NCBI GenBank assembly: GCA_030770425.1 | Contig: JASJFT010000241.1 | Location: 1-64,000, forward strand | Direction of reading: 5' to 3' | DNA: 64,000 bases | Source of the DNA: Darksidea phi | Taxonomy: Eukaryota > Ascomycota > Dothideomycetes > Pleosporales > Lentitheciaceae | Part shown: positions 29,406 through 52,557 of the stretch, one piece after another | How positions within the stretch are numbered: the stretch's first letter is position 1 | Layout: each line of letters begins with the position of its first letter | Notes under the pieces: generated by a model | The model's input: the letters and a program-made list of their open reading frames with translations, nothing else | Database searches by the model: none | What the model was told of the DNA's origin: nothing | Translations under genes and position numbers: made by a program

Positions 29406-32400
29406 ATGGGAGCCTTCCCAGACGTTGGCGGCGAGATTGCGCAAATCATGCTCCATCAAATGGATGCAAGCACGGTCTCGTCTACTCACGATTGCGATGC
29501 CGGCGCATCTGAGCCTACACGAGCAAACAACTCGCTCGAAGATCTGCTACGAGCCGACAGCCGATTCGAAGCTGACGTCCCCTTGCCTGAATCGCGGCGC
29601 TCCTCAATTGTAGACGGCTCCGTCTCCCATTCATTCCATGGAAGCCCATCGAACGAACCGACTACTGAGAGTCGCCTTCCTTCCCCACGGCTGAATCGCT
29701 CACCAACCCCGAAGGCTCGTAGGGTGAGGATTGAAGTGCCCGAGGATCATGTTATCGAAAAGCCTTCTCCACGGGAAGAGCAACTTGCAGAGCACAACGA
29801 AGAGCCTGAGCCCAATCCGCTTTGGTACAGGTCACAGACTTTCTCCCATCGATATGGCTCTTCCCGTCGGGAACCACTACTCAGCCCTCCCCTCCGCGCG
29901 AGTACTTTGCCGGTTGAACTACCCTCAAGGAGCAGGAGGCTTATCGAGCGACTGCCACGGCAAAGGTTATCAAATACGCCTGCCGTCGAGCAGCGTATTG
30001 CACCTCCAGACCCAGCTTCTAGGTCCAAAAAGTCGGGTCCTTTGGAATCGCCACGGAACCGCAGCAATCAAAGTCCCATTGACGCGAATGCGCCTCTACA
30101 GCCTACCATCGGACCTTTTCCTCCTGACGACGCTACAACAGGACACGAGATTCACAAAGAAAATGCTATTCAAAGCCGAAATGTCCCGATTGCCCGGACT
30201 GCCCATGCAGCAGACGCACGAACGGCAGAGCCCCCCAAACTCCCAGGCCCAGCGCGATCGTCCGCGCAGGCTCGGATCGTTGTTCCTGGTACAACAAGTG
30301 GAACAATTGAGGATAATCCGAACCGCATCCGTCGACGCGGTACTGGTGATACTGACAACTCCTTAGGGCGTCGCTCTATACGTCACGGCTCGGAGATGAC
30401 TTGGGTGAGGAGGCGTGCGCCTAGGGCATCTTCGGCTAAAAAAGTCACCGAAATATTTGCGCCGGATTTCGATTTTCACAACTACGACAAACTTATTGAG
30501 CGCCTGGCCGATCACATGCCACAATTAGTGAATCTTCGCGGAGATGAATGTCGAAGAATCGACAACGGAGCCATATACTGCTACGATACTCTAGAAAGCG
30601 GGGGTCGGCCTCGCTTGCTAGACAGTATTTCCTTCTCAACGTATAGACGCTCTCCCGAATACGTCGCGAGCAGGGTTAGTGGCTTGAAGCCCAACCGGGT
30701 ACGCAACGTCCGATTTCGATATATCTTGGTGGAAGATCTCTCTCCACTTGTTATTAGGTGCCTTGGCTCAACGTTTTGGCTCAATCCAGAATTCTTCGAA
30801 GAACATCTCAACCAAAGCGGCTATCGACCCGACTCCTATAACGACCCACATCCAAAAACTTGGAATACCAATGAAACTCCCAAGGACTATGCCTCAGTGC
30901 GTTGGTTTCGACCAGTGCATAGAACTAGGATTCGGCCGCTTTCGGAACTCGACCGTGAAAGGCTGTTGACCGACCAGGGCGAATTTAAATGGAAGACCAA
31001 TGTAGAAGGTGCAGGATTGCGAGAGGAAGTCGTTACTCTAGAAAATAACATATTCCGCAGGGAATGGCCCGTAGTATCTGACCCTGACGGAGCGATGATG
31101 GAAGACGGAGACAGCACGTTTCCCGTAGGTTGGGAAGAGAAAGTTACTGTTCACGTCTCTCAATATGCAGGCCGACCCCCGACTTTTATCATACTGCTGG
31201 ATCCGCTTCCGTCATTTGCCATCCAATCAGAACCGAGCAAAGGTGAATATGAGTTGGCCAAGAGGACAATTCCCTTTACCCAGGCATACAGCAGGGCTCC
31301 GATGGGCCCGAGATTCGGACTTACGGATGTCTTTGATGGGAATCCGCTGCAAGAAAGAACTATCCGTCAACTTGCTTCCAATCTTGCGTCCACGAATTGC
31401 ACACGAGAAGACTTGACATCATGGCTGTACAGTATCCACGGGGTCAAATCGGATGGTGCCGACATGGACATGATCACAGGTCTCTTGTGGATCATTCATA
31501 GAGACGTCGTTGGCTTTTTACACTTCGTCAGCACGACTTTAGAAGACATAGGACTCCATGCTACTGACGACTACCTGATACAAAAGCGTCTTGCACATTG
31601 GCGTCATCTAATTTCCCGTTTCCAGACGGAGCTACCAGCCATGCGTTCTTCCATCAAGAAATTCTTCGAGTTTGTCGCACAGTATCAACAACTGGATCGT
31701 GCCAAAGACTTCATTCAACGAACATTGGATTTGGTCGACGACCTAATAGAGGAGAATGAAAAGTCATATGCTGCACTGCGAGCAGACATGGCTTTATTAG
31801 AAAGCAAGAGGGCTATCGACCAGGCCGAAAGCGTCGGAAAACTCACAGAGCTTGGCTTCATCTTCATTCCAATATCTTGCATAGCTTCACTTTTCAGCAT
31901 GCAAGTCCAGCCACTCGAATCACCGGCTCCGATCTATTCTTTCTTTGTAGTTGCCATCGCCACTATAGGACTAATCTACATCATTCGACTCACAATCCGA
32001 AGTGCAGTGCTTATCGAATACAAGCGTGAGCTTTCTAGGAAGATCCGTATATATAAGGAACTCCCTCCAGGAACTCCTATACCTACCAGGATTTTCCTCC
32101 TGTACATGACGAAGGATGTCGAATTCCGTAGGCTTCTCCACAAACATATCTGGCGTCCAGTTGGCATCGTAATTTTATTTATCTCTGCTCTAGCCGCACT
32201 GATGTTACCGATAACCTTTCTGTGGACGCGCAACAGACGTATGGACGCCGGGTTCAAGGGAATGTTGACAGTGCTTATCTTCGTATTTGGTGCTGGAGTC
32301 ACCTTTCCCTTCGTCATTTATATACTACGGAAGAATAGGGTTATTTTCAACACATCAGGCAGTGCGCGCGGCCCTGATATCCGTGTCACCTTTGATGGAG

Positions 32401-33380
32401 TCAAAAGCGTCACATCTCGACCGAGGTCGCGCAGTCCAAGCAGCCCCTACTCTGATTCAGAGTCGAAGACCTCAAGAAGGCCTAAAAATGGCTGGCAGCG
32501 AGGACTAATCGCTACTGCGGACTGGCTACTTGGCAGACGAAAAAAGAAATCGGATACGGAGTCCATGAGTGATTATATGTACAGCGACTACACATCCTCA
32601 AGTGCTTCCGCTAGCTCCAGGAGGACAAGACAAACCCGACGGCGCACCAGCTCCTCTTCCTCCTTGAACCTTAATCGAAACGCTCGCGAGCCAAAACCTT
32701 ACACTTACACCCCGGAAAGTATCATGAACAGGGGAGAGAGGAGGATCGTTCCAACGGAGAACCATCCTCATAGGGAGGAAGAATCGGATGAATCTGGGCC
32801 ATTCCGGTTGACAAGACGTCACAGGTCTACCGAAAGCTTCAGTGATGATGATCTGTACGAACGGCTAACGCCGGGCCGAACACCGATACTTGGACAGGCT
32901 TCCGAGCCGGCTACGGAAACTTTCCAAGACGATGCCGTTCCCCACAGCCTTCACAGTGGAAGCTCAGTATCGTCAGCATCATTTGATCCAAATACTGCAA
33001 TCGTACTCTACGACCATGCTGTCACAGCACCTCAACTTGACACCATCGAACGGAGCGCGAAGACCTCGTTATCAATTGATCGGGTCTCGCTGCCTACCCT
33101 CGATCTTTCCGAAGGCTCGCTTGGGAATGACGACATTGGGATAAAGCGATCCAAAGGCAAGGAGAAAGCATTGGAACACGATGCCTACCCTCCATCAGAC
33201 ATTTCCCCCAACAATGCTTTCTACGGCGGGATACTAATTGAAGAAGAAAAAGCAAAGGAACAGGGGCCTCACATCTCTCCCGACAACCCCTCGCCCGCCG
33301 ATTCGAATCGTTTAGCCATCAGCCGACGGCAGTCGCAAGGAAGAAGCGAGCAAATACCTGAGGACAACTATGGACATTGA
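29406..33380 (+). CDS. Large CorA-like membrane protein
   Basis: One uninterrupted frame of 1,324 residues. Residues 1-340 are low-complexity, rich in Ser, Arg and Pro. From about 350 (FAPDFDFHNYDKLIERL) a globular region resembles the cytoplasmic funnel of fungal CorA-like proteins, and a long helical stretch near 700-810 leads to the membrane part. Hydrophobic segments lie near residues 815-837, 845-868, 915-942 and 950-976. CorA channels carry a Gly-Met-Asn motif at the end of the first helix; here the matching place reads SLFSMQV, so the motif is absent. The last 330 residues are Ser/Arg-rich, with clusters such as RRRTSSSSS, and are probably a cytosolic, phosphorylatable tail. Such proteins are sometimes annotated as magnesium transporters; transport has to be doubted without the motif. 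It is much longer than ordinary CorA proteins (300-600 residues). Confidence 0.8.
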   Translation: MGAFPDVGGEIAQIMLHQMDASTVSSTHDCDAGASEPTRANNSLEDLLRADSRFEADVPLPESRRSSIVDGSVSHSFHGSPSNEPTTESRLPSPRLNRSPTPKARRVRIEVPEDHVIEKPSPREEQLAEHNEEPEPNPLWYRSQTFSHRYGSSRREPLLSPPLRASTLPVELPSRSRRLIERLPRQRLSNTPAVEQRIAPPDPASRSKKSGPLESPRNRSNQSPIDANAPLQPTIGPFPPDDATTGHEIHKENAIQSRNVPIARTAHAADARTAEPPKLPGPARSSAQARIVVPGTTSGTIEDNPNRIRRRGTGDTDNSLGRRSIRHGSEMTWVRRRAPRASSAKKVTEIFAPDFDFHNYDKLIERLADHMPQLVNLRGDECRRIDNGAIYCYDTLESGGRPRLLDSISFSTYRRSPEYVASRVSGLKPNRVRNVRFRYILVEDLSPLVIRCLGSTFWLNPEFFEEHLNQSGYRPDSYNDPHPKTWNTNETPKDYASVRWFRPVHRTRIRPLSELDRERLLTDQGEFKWKTNVEGAGLREEVVTLENNIFRREWPVVSDPDGAMMEDGDSTFPVGWEEKVTVHVSQYAGRPPTFIILLDPLPSFAIQSEPSKGEYELAKRTIPFTQAYSRAPMGPRFGLTDVFDGNPLQERTIRQLASNLASTNCTREDLTSWLYSIHGVKSDGADMDMITGLLWIIHRDVVGFLHFVSTTLEDIGLHATDDYLIQKRLAHWRHLISRFQTELPAMRSSIKKFFEFVAQYQQLDRAKDFIQRTLDLVDDLIEENEKSYAALRADMALLESKRAIDQAESVGKLTELGFIFIPISCIASLFSMQVQPLESPAPIYSFFVVAIATIGLIYIIRLTIRSAVLIEYKRELSRKIRIYKELPPGTPIPTRIFLLYMTKDVEFRRLLHKHIWRPVGIVILFISALAALMLPITFLWTRNRRMDAGFKGMLTVLIFVFGAGVTFPFVIYILRKNRVIFNTSGSARGPDIRVTFDGVKSVTSRPRSRSPSSPYSDSESKTSRRPKNGWQRGLIATADWLLGRRKKKSDTESMSDYMYSDYTSSSASASSRRTRQTRRRTSSSSSLNLNRNAREPKPYTYTPESIMNRGERRIVPTENHPHREEESDESGPFRLTRRHRSTESFSDDDLYERLTPGRTPILGQASEPATETFQDDAVPHSLHSGSSVSSASFDPNTAIVLYDHAVTAPQLDTIERSAKTSLSIDRVSLPTLDLSEGSLGNDDIGIKRSKGKEKALEHDAYPPSDISPNNAFYGGILIEEEKAKEQGPHISPDNPSPADSNRLAISRRQSQGRSEQIPEDNYGH

Positions 33381-44008: not shown

Positions 44009-46291
44009 TTAGCCGTACAGAGTACCCCTTGTCTGTTCCGAGACTTGTGTCTCGTTGTGCAAGTGCTGAGTGACCTCGAGCGTCGTAACGATGTGGTGGT
44101 GGCTCAATTTAGCATCCTTCCGTGTAGCTAGCAGCCGCGCAATCTTTAGAATATTCTTGATCTGTCGACCATTCATATTCATGCGCGCAAGCTCATCAAG
44201 CTCACTCTTGGTGATACAATGCTCTTGTGGTGATGAGTCAAGAAAGTTCTTCCACACTGTACGCCGCGAGTTGACAGAGAGCTCTTGGTAGTCGAGCGAA
44301 ATGTGAATGCGTGACTGAAAGGCCTGATCGAACGTTTGTACACGGTTTGTTGTGAGGAACATGGTACCTGTTATACTTCGTTAGACTGTACGCTGTTGCT
44401 GTGGGGAGGGGTGACATACCCTCAAAATACTCCAATACACGTAGGAAGATAGACACAAGCTTGTTACGTTCCAATTCGTGCAGCGAGCGCTGTTCGAGGA
44501 ACACATCCGCTTCGTCTAACAGGAGTACACTATGCCAGCGAGTACACATTTCCAGGATATCCTGTAGCTTGGCCTCAACCTTGCTTGGATCTAAGCCTAG
44601 ATCTCCCGCGCTCATCATAAATAGCGGTACTTTCATTTCCTCTGCAACGGACTCGGCTGTGAGCGTTTTTCCCACGCCGGGAGGCCCGCAGAGCAAGATG
44701 ATCATACCACGACCTTTGCCTTCAATGACGTCGTCGAACGTGTCGCGGTGCTGTCGCTGCGACTCAGTGAAGCCCAGGATGAGCTCCTTCTGGTTCTTTG
44801 GAAGTACTAGCCTTTCAAATGCATCCTGTTGCCATTCAATCTCCTTTACGGAGTTGACGAAGAAGTTGAGCCAAAGCTTGCTCTTTAGACTATAACCACG
44901 AAGGAGAGGGGAGCAGATGAGCTTCTGGTCGGTGCTGAGCGGTGGCCGCTTTGATGCATCATCCTCGTCTGCAAAATGGCCGTCCATTGGCATGTCGTCG
45001 ACGTCACCTTCTTCTTCGTACTCCTCTTCTGAGTCCTCTTCATCTTGGTCCTGGGACTCCGTGGTGAGTTCTTTCTGAGTAAAGGGTTGGTTGTAGATGG
45101 CATAGCTAGGGTTGAATCGATTCCATCCGTATGTGTCAATTACGATCCGGCCTTCGACATTGTACTTGTCCTTGGTGCCGAAGTTCCCTTGACGCCATCC
45201 GATGCCGTGATATGCTCTATAGTTTGGCCCGGCCAGCGACTCCGCCTTGGCACCACGCTCAATAAGACGGGTCCGAAGGGCTTGTGCGTCCGGATGGTAT
45301 TCGATTGGAAATGCTCGGAGTTGCGCAATATGCCGTGTGCCGGTGTACTCATAGATCAATGAGTTCGACTTGCTAGTACCGAACCGAGTACCATCCCAGT
45401 CGACGTATTTACATCGGACCCAAAAGCAAGGGTTTCCTTTGCAATCTTGGCCATATTTGGTATCCAGCAGCGTCATTGCGGTTTCCTGTCCGTCTTGTCG
45501 GGTGAAAATGGTGGCTCCAGGCTGGAACAGAGTCCACAAATCGTCGTAAGTCATGACGCGCTTGTTTTTCAAATCTTGCGACCTATCAATCAGGCTCTTG
45601 AACTCTTTGACTAAAACATCTTGCAGAAGATTGGCATGCTCCTTGGTCGTGCGCTCTTGTTCCGTGTCATGGCCGAGCTTGGCAATGGCTGCCTGCAGAT
45701 CAGCCCATCGATGGATAAGAGGTTCGAACTTTCCCGAAAACTCTAGACGATTGAGGCCGACAGTAATGCCAGGATAGCCCTTTAATACCCCGGCAAGCAA
45801 TTTCTTGAGAAGAGGGCTTTGGACAACGATGGAGTGGATAGCCAGCACCTTGGTCGGGTCTCCGTAGACTTTTACGTTTCGCACAAGCAGGGCCCATTTT
45901 GCAGTTTTGTCGTTTTCGGCTGGGTCACCAATGTCTTCGGGGATCTTATCTTGCCACTGATAGCGTCCCTTCTTATCTATAAGAGGAAGCAAGGTTAGCG
46001 CAATTCTCAAAGGCGGGAGAAGAACACGTGGGCATCCAGCAAGGCTCAAGAATTGGACGTACCCTCTTTGCCGGAATACAGGTTATGGAGCCCATTTTTC
46101 ATGCCTGGCTCAATGTGCTCTTCAGGCTCTTCATCCTCGGGCTTTTCGATCACTTCTTCCTTGGTACCTTCGCCGTCCACACCATTGGTCGTACCGTTAA
46201 CGGCCTTGACCCCGTTCGGGAGGGTGAAGTTGAGCTCGTGCTCGTCCGAGGAATCTGACGAAGTGGAGAAGGTGCGCAGCCGTGAAGGCAT
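44009..46291 (-). CDS. Fungal AAA ATPase with N-terminal DUF7025-like region
   Basis: Exons are 46291-46063, 45976-44420 and 44367-44009. The introns 45977-46062 and 44368-44419 both have good signals and keep phase, giving 714 residues. Residues 1-75 are low-complexity. Residues about 80-400 form the conserved region found ahead of the ATPase in this fungal group (WALLVRNVKVYG, YDDLWTLFQPG, YHGIGWRQG). An acidic linker (EEDSEEEYEEEG) follows. The single AAA module has Walker A GPPGVGKT near 505, Walker B VLLLDEADVF near 556, a sensor-1 TTN and an arginine-finger-like SRIH. These proteins resemble the Bcs1/spastin-like AAA class, but the substrate is unknown. Its 5' end faces the homoserine kinase fusion gene. 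Confidence 0.9.
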
Positions 46292-47186: not shown

Positions 47187-49322
47187 ATGGCGACAACGAC
47201 CATCAAAGTCCCCTGCTCGTCGGCAAATCTGGGGCCTGGCTTCGACGTCATCGGTCTCGCCCTCAACCTCTACCTGGAGGTCCAGCTTACAGTCACAAAG
47301 CATGAATCTTCCTCGCACTCCCTCAATTGCCGCATAACCTACGAAGGCGTCAACCCCGAGTCGGTTCCATTAGTCGCCGAAGACAACCTCATTACACGTA
47401 CCGCCGTATACGTCCTCCGCTGCCATGGCATCCGCGTCTTCCCCCCCGAAACACACGTCCACATCAAGAACCCCATACCCCTCGGAAGAGGCCTCGGCTC
47501 GTCCGCAGCAGCCATTGTCGCTGGCGTCAATATCGCAAATGAGGTGGGAAACTTGTGCCTGTCAAAAGCAAGGATGCTGGACTACTGCCTCATGGAGGAG
47601 CGACACCCGGACAACGTAGCGGCCGCTCTGTACGGCGGCTTCGTCGGCACCTATCTGAACGAGCTCTCCCCAGAAGATACCGAGCGCCTCGAGATTCCAC
47701 TCAGTGAGGTTCTGTCAGCGCCTGCGGGCGGCATTGACACTGGGCTGCGGCCGCCAGAGCCGCCCAAGGATATCGGCCATTATACCAAGTACAAGTGGTC
47801 GCCGGACATCAAGTGTATCTGCATTATACCCCAGTTCGAGGTCTCTACTGCAAAGGCACGCGAGGTGCTGCCTGACAGCTACACCAGGAAGGATATCATC
47901 TTCAACATGCAGCGTCTAGCAGTTCTGACCACCGCTCTCGGAGAGTCGCCGCCAGATCCCGACCAGATCTACACGGCGATGCAGGATAAGATCCACCAGC
48001 CTTACCGTAGCGGTCTGATCCCAGGTCTTACTCAGATCCTACAATCCGTCACTCCCCAGTCGCATCCAGGCCTCTTAGGCATCTGTCTATCCGGGGCTGG
48101 GCCTACTATCCTAGCGCTGGCGACTAGCAACTTCGACTCAATAGCCAATCATTTGCTCGCCGAATTTCAGAAAGAAAACATTGCCTGCGACTGGCGGCTT
48201 CTAGCGCCTGCGGAGGAAGGAACAACTGTGATGCGGCCGAGGGCGTCGTCTCTACCGGTGGAAGAGGCTCTGACGTACGCCTCCTCCGGTGTCAGTATCG
48301 ACGCTGGAAATGACCTCGTGAATGTCATCAAGGCACTTACCGCATCAACGAGAAGGCCCGGGGCCGATGGCAAGATTGGTGGATTCGGCGGCCTTCTCGA
48401 CCTGAAGGCTGCGGGTTACGACGAGCCACCCATTATCGTCAGCGCCATTGACGGCATTGGTACCAAGGTAAAGATTGCGTTCGAAATGGGTAAGCACGAC
48501 ACCGTCGGGATCGACTTGGTAGCCATGAACGTGAACGATCTCGTGGTCCAAGGTGCGGAACCTCTCATTTTCCTTGATTACTACGCTTGCAGCAAACTCA
48601 GTGTGGAGAGCGCCGCCAAGTTCGTGGAAGGGGTCGCAAATGGATGTCGACTCTCGGGAGCAGCTTTGGTGGGGGGCGAGACTGCCGAAATGCCCGGCAT
48701 CTACAAAGACGGCGAGTACGACGCAGGAGGGTGTGCGATCGGTGCTATCAAAAGGGGGGTCACGATATTACCAGACACTGCCGCAATGGCGGAGGGAGAT
48801 GTGCTCCTCGGTCTTTCATCGGACGGCGTTCACTCCAACGGCTTCTCCCTCGTCCGCAAGATTATTGAGAAGAAGGGACTGTCGTTCCACGACACTGCAC
48901 CCTGGAGCACCGGTGAGACTGTCGGCGGCAGTCTACTCACACCAACGCGCATCTACGTCAAGCCATTACTGGCTGCAACTCGAAAGCGGCTTATCAAGGG
49001 GATGGCTCATATTACAGGCGGCGGTCTCCTCGAGAATATCCCTCGCATGCTGCCAGACACCCTTGCAGCGGAGCTAGACGCAAAGACTTGGCCCGTACCG
49101 GAGGTATTTAAGTGGCTCAAGCAGGCGGGTCGGCTTGAAGACTCGGAGTTTGCCCGCACGTTCAACACCGGGCTCGGAATGGTCCTTGTCGTCAACGAAG
49201 AGGATGCTCAGACAGCTACCGAGATCCTGCAAGAGTATGGGGAGCAGGTGTACAGGGTAGGAACTTTGGTCAAGAAGACCACCGAGCTGTGTACGGTGCG
49301 GAACATGGACGTCTGGAGATGA
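47187..49322 (+). CDS. Homoserine kinase fused to AIR synthetase (phosphoribosylformylglycinamidine cyclo-ligase)
   Basis: One intron-free frame of 711 residues. Residues 1-348 are a complete GHMP-type homoserine kinase, the step making O-phosphohomoserine for threonine: VPCSSANLGPGFDVIG near 8-23, the ATP loop PLGRGLGSSAAAIVAG near 98-113, HPDNVAAALYGGF near 145 and CLSGAGPTILAL near 303. Residues about 361-711 are a complete AIR synthetase (PurM type): TYASSGVSIDAGNDLV, FGGLLDL, DGIGTK, VQGAEPLIFLDYYA, GGETAEMPG near 497, DGVHSNGFSLVRK and HITGGG near 607. The joint is a short linker (RASSLPVEE). Met349 (ATG at 48231) lies exactly at the border and could allow a separate AIRS product. In fungi AIRS is normally the second half of the ADE5,7 protein, and homoserine kinase is normally alone. 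No base-composition break is seen. Both halves look active by motif. The downstream genes are APRT and RidA. Confidence 0.95.
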   Translation: MATTTIKVPCSSANLGPGFDVIGLALNLYLEVQLTVTKHESSSHSLNCRITYEGVNPESVPLVAEDNLITRTAVYVLRCHGIRVFPPETHVHIKNPIPLGRGLGSSAAAIVAGVNIANEVGNLCLSKARMLDYCLMEERHPDNVAAALYGGFVGTYLNELSPEDTERLEIPLSEVLSAPAGGIDTGLRPPEPPKDIGHYTKYKWSPDIKCICIIPQFEVSTAKAREVLPDSYTRKDIIFNMQRLAVLTTALGESPPDPDQIYTAMQDKIHQPYRSGLIPGLTQILQSVTPQSHPGLLGICLSGAGPTILALATSNFDSIANHLLAEFQKENIACDWRLLAPAEEGTTVMRPRASSLPVEEALTYASSGVSIDAGNDLVNVIKALTASTRRPGADGKIGGFGGLLDLKAAGYDEPPIIVSAIDGIGTKVKIAFEMGKHDTVGIDLVAMNVNDLVVQGAEPLIFLDYYACSKLSVESAAKFVEGVANGCRLSGAALVGGETAEMPGIYKDGEYDAGGCAIGAIKRGVTILPDTAAMAEGDVLLGLSSDGVHSNGFSLVRKIIEKKGLSFHDTAPWSTGETVGGSLLTPTRIYVKPLLAATRKRLIKGMAHITGGGLLENIPRMLPDTLAAELDAKTWPVPEVFKWLKQAGRLEDSEFARTFNTGLGMVLVVNEEDAQTATEILQEYGEQVYRVGTLVKKTTELCTVRNMDVWR

Positions 49323-50712: not shown

Positions 50713-51495
50713 ATGTCCGGCGAACCCACGCCCAGCAACACGTCGACAGCAGAGCACCCGCCGCCCGCCTCGAAGCCTTCTACCTCGTCGCACCCCCCAC
50801 TCCACAAGCCGGATCCCACCCTCAGCTCCAACCACCATGCCGCCCAAAGAAGACTCTCCGCCTCCAGTCCCTCCGCCGCCGCCGAACTCGCCAGTCTTAC
50901 GCTAAACCTCAGATCTGCCCTCCGCCAATTCCCCGATTTCCCGTCGCCAGGCATCCTCTTCGAAGACATCCTGCCCATCTTCGCCAACCCGCAGTTGCAC
51001 GAGGCTCTCGTGCGCGCGCTGGAGCTGCATGTCGGCCAGGCGTTCGAGCAGCCGGATGTCATCGTCGGGCTGGAGGCGCGCGGCTTCCTGTTCGGGCCCA
51101 GTCTGGCGTTGAGGGTGGGTGCGGCCTTCGTGCCGGTCAGGAAGAAGGGGAAGCTACCGGGGCCGTGTGAGACGGCGGGCTACAAGAAGGAGTATGGCGA
51201 GGACTTCTTCCAGATGCAAAAGGGCGCGGTGAAGGAGGGGCAGAAGGTGCTCGTCGTCGACGATATCATTGCCACAGGTATGCGCTTTCTTGCACCTTGG
51301 GCCTCCCCGTGGCTTGGGAACGGCTACTGATCAATTGCAATTGCAGGCGGCTCCGCGGCGGCGGCCGGCTCGCTCGTCAGGAAACTCGGCGGCAGCCTCC
51401 TCGGCTACGTCTTCATGCTCGAGCTCGACTTCCTCAAGGGCCGCGCGAAGCTCGACGCCCCCGTCTACACGCTCCTTTCCAGCCAGGAAAAGTAG
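50713..51495 (+). CDS. APT1: Adenine phosphoribosyltransferase
   Basis: Exons are 50713-51277 and 51347-51495. The 69-nt intron (GTATGC to TTGCAG) splits the PRPP loop between ACAG and GC and restores VLVVDDIIATGGSAAAAG, giving 237 residues. The enzyme makes AMP from adenine and PRPP (purine salvage, cytosol). Family blocks are LRQFPDFPSPGILFEDILPIF near 75, GLEARGFLFGP, VPVRKKGKLPG and the PRPP loop near 183-199. The first 60 residues are a Pro/Ser/Thr-rich extension absent from the usual 180-residue enzyme; a later start or a missed 5' intron cannot be excluded, but no later in-frame ATG precedes the core. It lies downstream of the homoserine kinase-AIRS gene on the same strand. Confidence 0.92.
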
Positions 51496-51866: not shown

Positions 51867-52557
51867 ATGCGCAGCGTGCCATATACTTGGAGCTTACGGC
51901 GAGCCTGCTCTTCAGTTCCTCGACGCCCTCCACTCCGCGCGCAGTTCCTCTCGCAAGCCCGCCACATGTCCGAGATCAAGAAGGTCGTCACGGCGAATGC
52001 CGCCCCGGGTAAGTGCCTATGCAAGGGCGGCCTGATAGAGCCTGGTTAACGAGACTGAGTACAGTTGCTGGCCCTTACGTACGTCTCGTCTATTCGATTC
52101 CTCCTTACCCGCAACCAGCCTCATACACGGAACGAGGACTCGGCTGACGATGCGGGCAACAGTCGCAAGCCATCATCGCAGGACCCAACGTCTTCGTCTC
52201 TGGCCAGATCCCCGCTGACACCAAGGGCAACCTGATCGAGGGCAGCATCGCAGACAAGACGACGCAGTGCTGCGAGAACATCACTGCGATTTTGAAGGAG
52301 GCTGGGACGAATGTCTCGCGTGTGGTCAAGGTACGCCCCTCCCCACAACCCAAAGCCGGGGCGCTGGTTGATCATGTGGTTCCTAGGTCAACGTCTTTCT
52401 CGACGACATGGCCCACTTCGCCGAGATGAACGGCGTCTTCGAAAAGTACTTCTCGCACAAGCCCGCGCGTAGCTGTGTCGCGGTCAAGCAGTTGCCCAAG
52501 GGCGTGCCGGTCGAGATCGAGGCAATTGCATATGTTGGTACGACACCAAAACTCTAA
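51867..52557 (+). CDS. RidA/Mmf1 family enamine/imine deaminase
   Basis: Exons are 51867-52008, 52065-52078 (14 nt), 52163-52330 and 52387-52557, giving 164 residues. The family hydrolyses reactive 2-aminoacrylate and 2-iminobutanoate made from serine and threonine by PLP enzymes. Core blocks are [41 protein letters not shown] and [15 protein letters not shown], with the conserved Arg and the C-terminal VEIEAIA glutamate. The first ATG gives a 33-residue Arg/Ser-rich leader ([20 protein letters not shown]) typical of mitochondrial targeting; a second ATG at 51966 starts right at the mature domain (MSEIKKV), so two forms are possible. The stop at 52557 assumes read-through; a GTACGA...CTAG intron (52538-52593) would instead end the protein after AYVG at 52598. 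Confidence 0.92.

Follow-up and report, generated by a model that had tools for sequence, protein, structure and literature searches.

Introduction

Multifunctional enzymes of purine synthesis are often explained by channelling or by a fixed stoichiometry of their partners. The described systems closest to the gene analyzed here are the GARS-AIRS proteins (Ade5,7 of yeast, MoAde5,7 of Magnaporthe, Ade8 of Coprinopsis and GART of animals), the homoserine kinase THR1/ThrB and the bacterial single-domain PurM. GARS and AIR synthetase (AIRS) in one protein constitute the usual fungal arrangement according to the available portions of two reports (PMC7552465, PMC9502316), and the available text of a third presents the spermidine synthase-saccharopine reductase gene as a fungal fusion across pathways (PMC10051792).

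Here we analyze a 64,000-nucleotide window of the Darksidea phi genome (GenBank assembly GCA_030770425.1, contig JASJFT010000241.1, positions 1 to 64,000), in which one gene encodes both a homoserine kinase (HSK) and an AIRS. As in the GARS-AIRS proteins, a homologous AIRS forms the C-terminal part, but its partner is a homoserine kinase from another pathway and GARS is a separate protein. With THR1/ThrB the fusion shares a full match to TIGR00191 and the GHMP motifs, to which it adds an AIRS extension of approximately 350 residues, whereas the solved HSKs matching it by sequence comprise 296-331 amino acids, besides the fragments 5was_A/B. The full match to TIGR00878 is likewise shared with bacterial PurM, but the AIRS of the fusion is joined to HSK at its N terminus and groups with fungi. 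Like spermidine synthase-saccharopine reductase, the gene joins two pathways in a fungus; the enzymes differ, and the HSK-AIRS case would also have broken up an older fusion.

A first-pass annotation, made from the letters of the window, did not know this pair as a described enzyme, and we too found no account of it in the literature searched, mostly titles and beginnings of abstracts with few subscription journals; an earlier mention is possible in Leonard and Richards 2012 in PNAS, reportedly the main survey of fungal gene fusions. On the comparisons reported below, the gene very probably encodes a bifunctional HSK-AIRS enzyme that arose once, near the base of the Dothideomycetes, by movement of AIRS from ADE5,7 to THR1.

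Results

The fusion gene and its two halves

The fusion gene (47187..49322, forward strand) is an intron-free frame of 711 codons including the stop, with no internal stop across its length, which agrees with its original description as a single gene. Its homoserine kinase part (THR1/ThrB; residues 5-349; 47199..48233, forward strand) matches TIGR00191 thrB with 343.7 bits (cut-off 168.25) over positions 2-302 of the 304 in the model, an assignment that also draws on its standing as the sole match in the genome and on homologues in the PDB. A variable junction, delimited on an alignment of 46 fusions, follows at residues 350-361 (48234..48269, forward strand) and leads into the PurM-type AIR synthetase part (residues 362-696; 48270..49274, forward strand), which matches TIGR00878 purM with 420.6 bits (cut-off 236.35) over positions 1-331 of 332 and is placed as AIRS by the tree described below. 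Pfam matches in the protein comprised GHMP_kinases_N, AIRS and AIRS_C; no GARS domain was found among them, and the combination of GARS and AIRS in one polypeptide that characterizes ADE5,7 is therefore lacking. The solved structures matching the AIRS half by sequence are 5vk4, 1cli, 2v9y and 7lvp.

We aligned the window fusion with 45 of its best 120 relatives. Across these 46 fusions, positions in PxSSANxGPGFD, PIPLGRGLGSS, HPDN and LSGAGPT, which we take to be the functional GHMP motifs of homoserine kinase, were invariant or nearly so, as were those in DGxGTK, GGETAEMPG, GxHSNG and HITGGGxxxNxPR, presumably the functional motifs of PurM AIR synthetase. In the AIRS stretch RT(F/W)NTGLGM two positions vary, with majority fractions of 0.74 and 0.61. 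The mean majority fraction was 0.87 in HSK and 0.82 in AIRS, falling to 0.57 in the junction and 0.60 in the last 15 residues, and the spacing between the invariant G345 and T363 ranged from 13 to 25 residues. Strong conservation of both halves around a loose junction is the pattern that would be expected of two working enzymes on a tether, and together with the full-length profile matches it upholds the first-pass description of both enzymes as complete, with their main motifs kept.

An AlphaFold model of the full fusion, built from 46 close sequences, reached a mean pLDDT of 71.6 and a pTM of 0.51, with the AIRS half weakly modelled (pLDDT below 50 in much of residues 390-511). Foldseek searches with this weak model matched HSK and PurM structures, the matches to 5vk4, 2v9y and 1cli (rmsd of approximately 9-16 Å) coming from the weakly predicted AIRS half. 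Given these pLDDT and pTM values, the arrangement of the domains in the model was set aside.

Genomic context of the fusion

Downstream of the fusion and on the same strand lie an adenine phosphoribosyltransferase-like gene (50713..51495, PF00156; first exon at about 50713-51278, end placed by eye) and then a RidA/YjgF-type gene (about 51966-52557; PF01042, one exon tested). Bacterial RidA-type proteins have been linked to threonine-derived reactive enamines and to purine regulation, and the row of fusion, phosphoribosyltransferase and RidA-type genes may be more than chance. Upstream, on the reverse strand, a frame resembling AAA ATPases contains a DUF7025 domain (44238-46049). Elsewhere in the window, a 1324-codon open frame (29406-33380, forward strand) bears a weak resemblance to CorA-type magnesium transporters at residues 737-859 (20 bits, below the cut-off).

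One database relative bears on this neighborhood. The Bipolaris maydis protein P0089 (867 aa) contains a fusion cut short in AIRS that runs into a phosphoribosyltransferase, and probably results from a wrong intron that joined two neighboring genes in one model. This model suggests that the adjacency of fusion and phosphoribosyltransferase is common to B. maydis.

The fusion recurs across the Dothideomycetes

Among the best 120 of 4545 database proteins under the E-value limit (identities of 68-92%), 119 contain all three Pfam domains (GHMP, AIRS and AIRS_C), the exception being a 582-aa piece (P0110), and BLASTP matched both halves in all 120. Because the architecture recurs in 119 of the 120 listed relatives, chance and an assembly error at the joint are excluded. 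The holders of the fusion that we looked up in the taxonomy fall in six Dothideomycete orders plus one unclassified member: Pleosporales (Lentithecium), Mytilinidiales (Lophium), Botryosphaeriales (Lasiodiplodia, Saccharata and Aplosporella), Aulographales (Aulographum), Dothideales (Aureobasidium and Delphinella), Mycosphaerellales (Oleoguttula sp., the sole record of its order among the listed matches) and the unclassified Dothideomycete NU459.

The domain pair is already visible in public databases, under names that cover one half each ('homoserine kinase', 'AIR synthase', 'cyclo-ligase-like' and 'ADE1'). Database start sites of the fusion are inconsistent, since the models P0043/P0044 and P0035, from Parastagonospora and a near relative, begin 48 residues upstream (758 against 710 aa).

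Single copies in the home genome and free GARS in other fungi

We searched the home assembly (51.35 Mb in 477 contigs), in which the fusion lies on contig C159. Its only HSK match was the fusion. Besides the fusion, AIRS_C matched twice in a single open frame of 1389 residues on C444; given this length and the pair of AIRS_C stretches, we take the frame to be PurL (FGAM synthase). No second PurM-type AIRS was found in the 51.35 Mb. GARS_A matched in one place, on C79, where a gene with one intron encodes a standalone protein of 430 aa, with its C terminus, ...RKDIAGRALKK, beyond the GARS C domain. No AIRS remnant was detected at E values up to 10 in a 7-kb stretch around this gene, the sole weak match there being to the GARS query. 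No GARS-AIRS (ADE5,7) gene was found in the home assembly, which answers the earlier call to look for one, and the possibility that ADE5,7 is kept elsewhere in this assembly was rejected, there being no AIRS or GARS match of that kind. With GARS standing alone and neither a second PurM-type AIRS nor a remnant, the duplication that the first-pass annotation had proposed, with ADE5,7 left in place, is unsupported.

Free GARS was searched for with a length filter of 0.55-1.75 of 430 aa, which excludes proteins of ADE5,7 length, and the best 120 of 7999 matches were analyzed. All 120 (369-561 aa) carry GARS domains without an AIRS domain; 109 of them reach query residue 425, and of these 98 have no extra tail and 11 have 1-10 extra residues. 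Taking the best 120 of each list, fusion and free GARS (425-442 aa) are both on record in at least 28 other species. The free-GARS list also includes Pseudovirgaria (Acrospermales) and Coniosporium, whose fusions are not among the best 120 of 4545.

A corresponding search with an artificial GARS+AIRS query yielded GARS and AIRS domains in every one of the best 120 of 7884 matches (776-1363 aa). No Dothideomycete, and no Eurotiomycete, was recognized among the named records of these 120. The list therefore does not span all classes, and an ADE5,7 of a Dothideomycete, if divergent, could rank below it. The ADE5,7 holders that were looked up are Watsoniomyces (Lichinomycetes), Caeruleum (incertae sedis in leotiomyceta) and Zalerion (Sordariomycetes), and no species name was seen in both the fusion and the ADE5,7 lists (best 120 of each). 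We infer that ADE5,7 has been lost in fusion species beyond the home genome.

The AIRS half descends from fungal ADE5,7

We inferred an AIRS tree from 59 rows, hand-picked to cover a range of named taxa and of divergence rather than at random: 24 fusions (the window and 23 of the 120), 25 of the 120 ADE5,7 proteins and 10 of 15 bacterial loci obtained by a pattern-based scan. All 24 fusion AIRS group together (99/89, starred; recovered in 98% of 200 bootstrap trees) and are nested with 23 fungal ADE5,7 AIRS in a clade supported at 100/99, all bacterial rows falling outside. The sister of the fusion group is a single row, Tricharina, with modest support (94/78). This nesting shows the predicted AIRS half to descend from the fungal ADE5,7 lineage, as had been supposed from the window, and therefore to have changed partner. 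In a GARS tree of 28 free GARS (that of the home genome and 27 of the 120) and 25 of the 120 ADE5,7 proteins, likewise chosen by hand, a branch set the free GARS apart, but its support was poor (22/77; 30% of bootstrap trees), which leaves their grouping as one clade weak. A single origin of the candidate enzyme is supported by the AIRS tree and compatible with the GARS tree.

The junctions point to where the old protein was opened. In the nine ADE5,7 junctions compared, GARS ends at ...RKDIAH(R/K)AF and AIRS starts within approximately 10 residues at (L/M)TYA; the home fusion resumes at EALTYAS, with the same (L/M)TYA motif. Since the end of free GARS and the start of the fusion AIRS flank it, the breakpoint lies in the old GARS-AIRS linker.

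Predicted function

The N-terminal half would phosphorylate homoserine (the THR1 step of threonine synthesis) and the C-terminal half would make AIR from FGAM (purine step 5). The fusion is the only source found in the home genome for either predicted activity, and both presumably work. Because each predicted activity was found only there, threonine prototrophy and purine prototrophy would both be expected to depend on this gene. Most likely the two active sites would work independently and the fusion would fix their supply, and hence the dosage of the two activities, at 1:1.

Threonine aldolase makes glycine from threonine, and a route from threonine through glycine to purines is a conceivable metabolic link between the halves. 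In the available text of a review, glycine and riboflavin rose in Ashbya when threonine aldolase was overexpressed and threonine supplied (PMC7693651), and glycine is given as the GARS substrate in the part consulted of PMC7552465. Glycine enters at GARS, the half that did not move, which makes channelling inside the fused protein unlikely; shared supply or a frozen accident is the more likely explanation.

Rearrangements that could have produced the fusion

In the history that we propose, the ancestral state would have been the GARS-AIRS protein ADE5,7 with a separate THR1. A single transfer, probably at the base of the Dothideomycetes or close to it, would then have set the AIRS half of ADE5,7 in frame after THR1. 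GARS would have remained as a protein of its own, ending almost exactly where the two domains used to meet. A change of partner without a surviving duplicate is the simpler history.

The longest contig given for the fusion record equals that given for the free-GARS record in four of the 28 shared species: Lasiodiplodia hormozganensis (37,940), Saccharata proteae (738,190) and Aplosporella prunicola (1,043,247), all Botryosphaeriales, and Dothideomycetes sp. NU459 (168,294; models g5807 and g5819). Among 120 x 120 records, exact agreement occurs only in these four cases, each within one organism. As the NU459 fusion falls with those of Aureobasidium and Delphinella (Dothideales) in the AIRS tree and the other three species are Botryosphaeriales, the linkage of fusion and GARS may be old. 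Our reading, with the shared contig deduced from equal lengths, is that the two genes were neighbors early and were later spread apart. Shared contigs fit a local event, be it an inversion or a local duplication with loss.

One tentative possibility, which we take seriously, is a single inversion: had it broken THR1 at its 3' end and ADE5,7 within the short GARS|AIRS linker, the genes would have exchanged their 3' ends, giving the fusion and a free GARS together. This scenario assumes that THR1 and ADE5,7 were convergent on one chromosome and needs no duplication. The four species with fusion and free GARS on apparently the same contig favor it, as does the resumption of the fusion just where AIRS begins in the nine ADE5,7 junctions, within approximately 10 residues of the GARS end. 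It also suits the class: mesosynteny, most striking in the Dothideomycetes, is explained by frequent inversions and rare translocations in the available text of Hane et al. 2011 (PMC3219968). Against this stand the deduction of a common contig from equal lengths only, the different lengths in the other 24 of the 28 species, the separate contigs of the two genes in the home genome (C159 and C79), and the fact that local duplication followed by loss would yield the same linkage.

That second route, which completes the first-pass proposal with a loss, is also possible, if rather doubtful: a duplicate of the AIRS part of ADE5,7 would have arisen behind THR1, and the old gene would afterwards have lost its own AIRS. 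It would arrive at the same end state and the same AIRS tree, and a local duplication would account equally for the shared contigs. It requires two events, however; no species name was seen in both the fusion and the ADE5,7 lists (best 120 of each), the 7-kb surroundings of the C79 GARS hold no trace of AIRS, and no second PurM-type copy was found in the assembly.

A more specific version of the inversion seems unlikely to us, namely that one inversion in the Dothideomycete ancestor undid the old fusion, made the class-defining one and was fixed by the tie between threonine, glycine and purines. Fixation would then have followed because threonine output, a source of glycine via threonine aldolase, was tied to the purine pathway, and homoserine kinase would have been brought physically beside other purine enzymes.

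One product or two, and a bacterial source

It is very improbable that the HSK-AIRS gene is an artefact of gene modelling or yields two products, for instance an AIRS-only protein from an internal start. Wrong merging of models does happen here, as in the Bipolaris protein P0089, but the frame of the fusion is open and intron-free in the DNA itself and its architecture stands in 119 of the 120 listed records. In the window an in-frame ATG lies at codon 349, by the junction, but Met 349 occurs in one of the 46 fusions, that of the window alone. At position 362, where the AIRS match begins, 17 of the 46 have Met, but 29, the window included, do not, and the same Met is present in the natural GARS-AIRS proteins P0125 and P0163. 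No internal start common to all fusions was seen at the junction; a lineage-specific one shares the very low probability that we give to this reading as a whole.

That the AIRS half was gained from bacteria, replacing the fungal copy, is the least credible reading and is rejected by the AIRS tree with its 10 bacterial loci: although PurM of the best bacterial locus, a Hyphomicrobiales MAG (L010 2001-3002), is 55% identical to fungal AIRS and branches next to the fungal clade, nearer than two animal-type rows (97/84), the fungal ADE5,7 AIRS in the rows compared are 60-66% identical to the fusion AIRS, which the tree puts inside the fungal clade at 100/99. The animal-type rows, P0121 and P0204, are 51-53% identical to the fusion AIRS, and the position of the Hyphomicrobiales PurM is possibly an old transfer or a long-branch effect.

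Discussion

Enzyme fusions are common, but it is unusual for one that is widespread in eukaryotes to be dismantled in several orders of a single fungal class. That members of several orders seem to have dropped the GARS-AIRS link offers a test of how much the link ever mattered. For the Dothideomycetes, the HSK-AIRS fusion could serve as a clean shared-derived marker, and it could be a record of gene birth by rearrangement. For users of public databases it carries a warning, in that protein names reflect one half of the fusion only.

One gene of these fungi thus seems to serve two separate pathways, both probably essential. In Candida and Cryptococcus, THR1 is described in the available text of PMC8241756 as essential for growth and required for virulence. 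There are crop pathogens among the fungi with the fusion, and in these AIR synthetase and homoserine kinase would come from a single gene.
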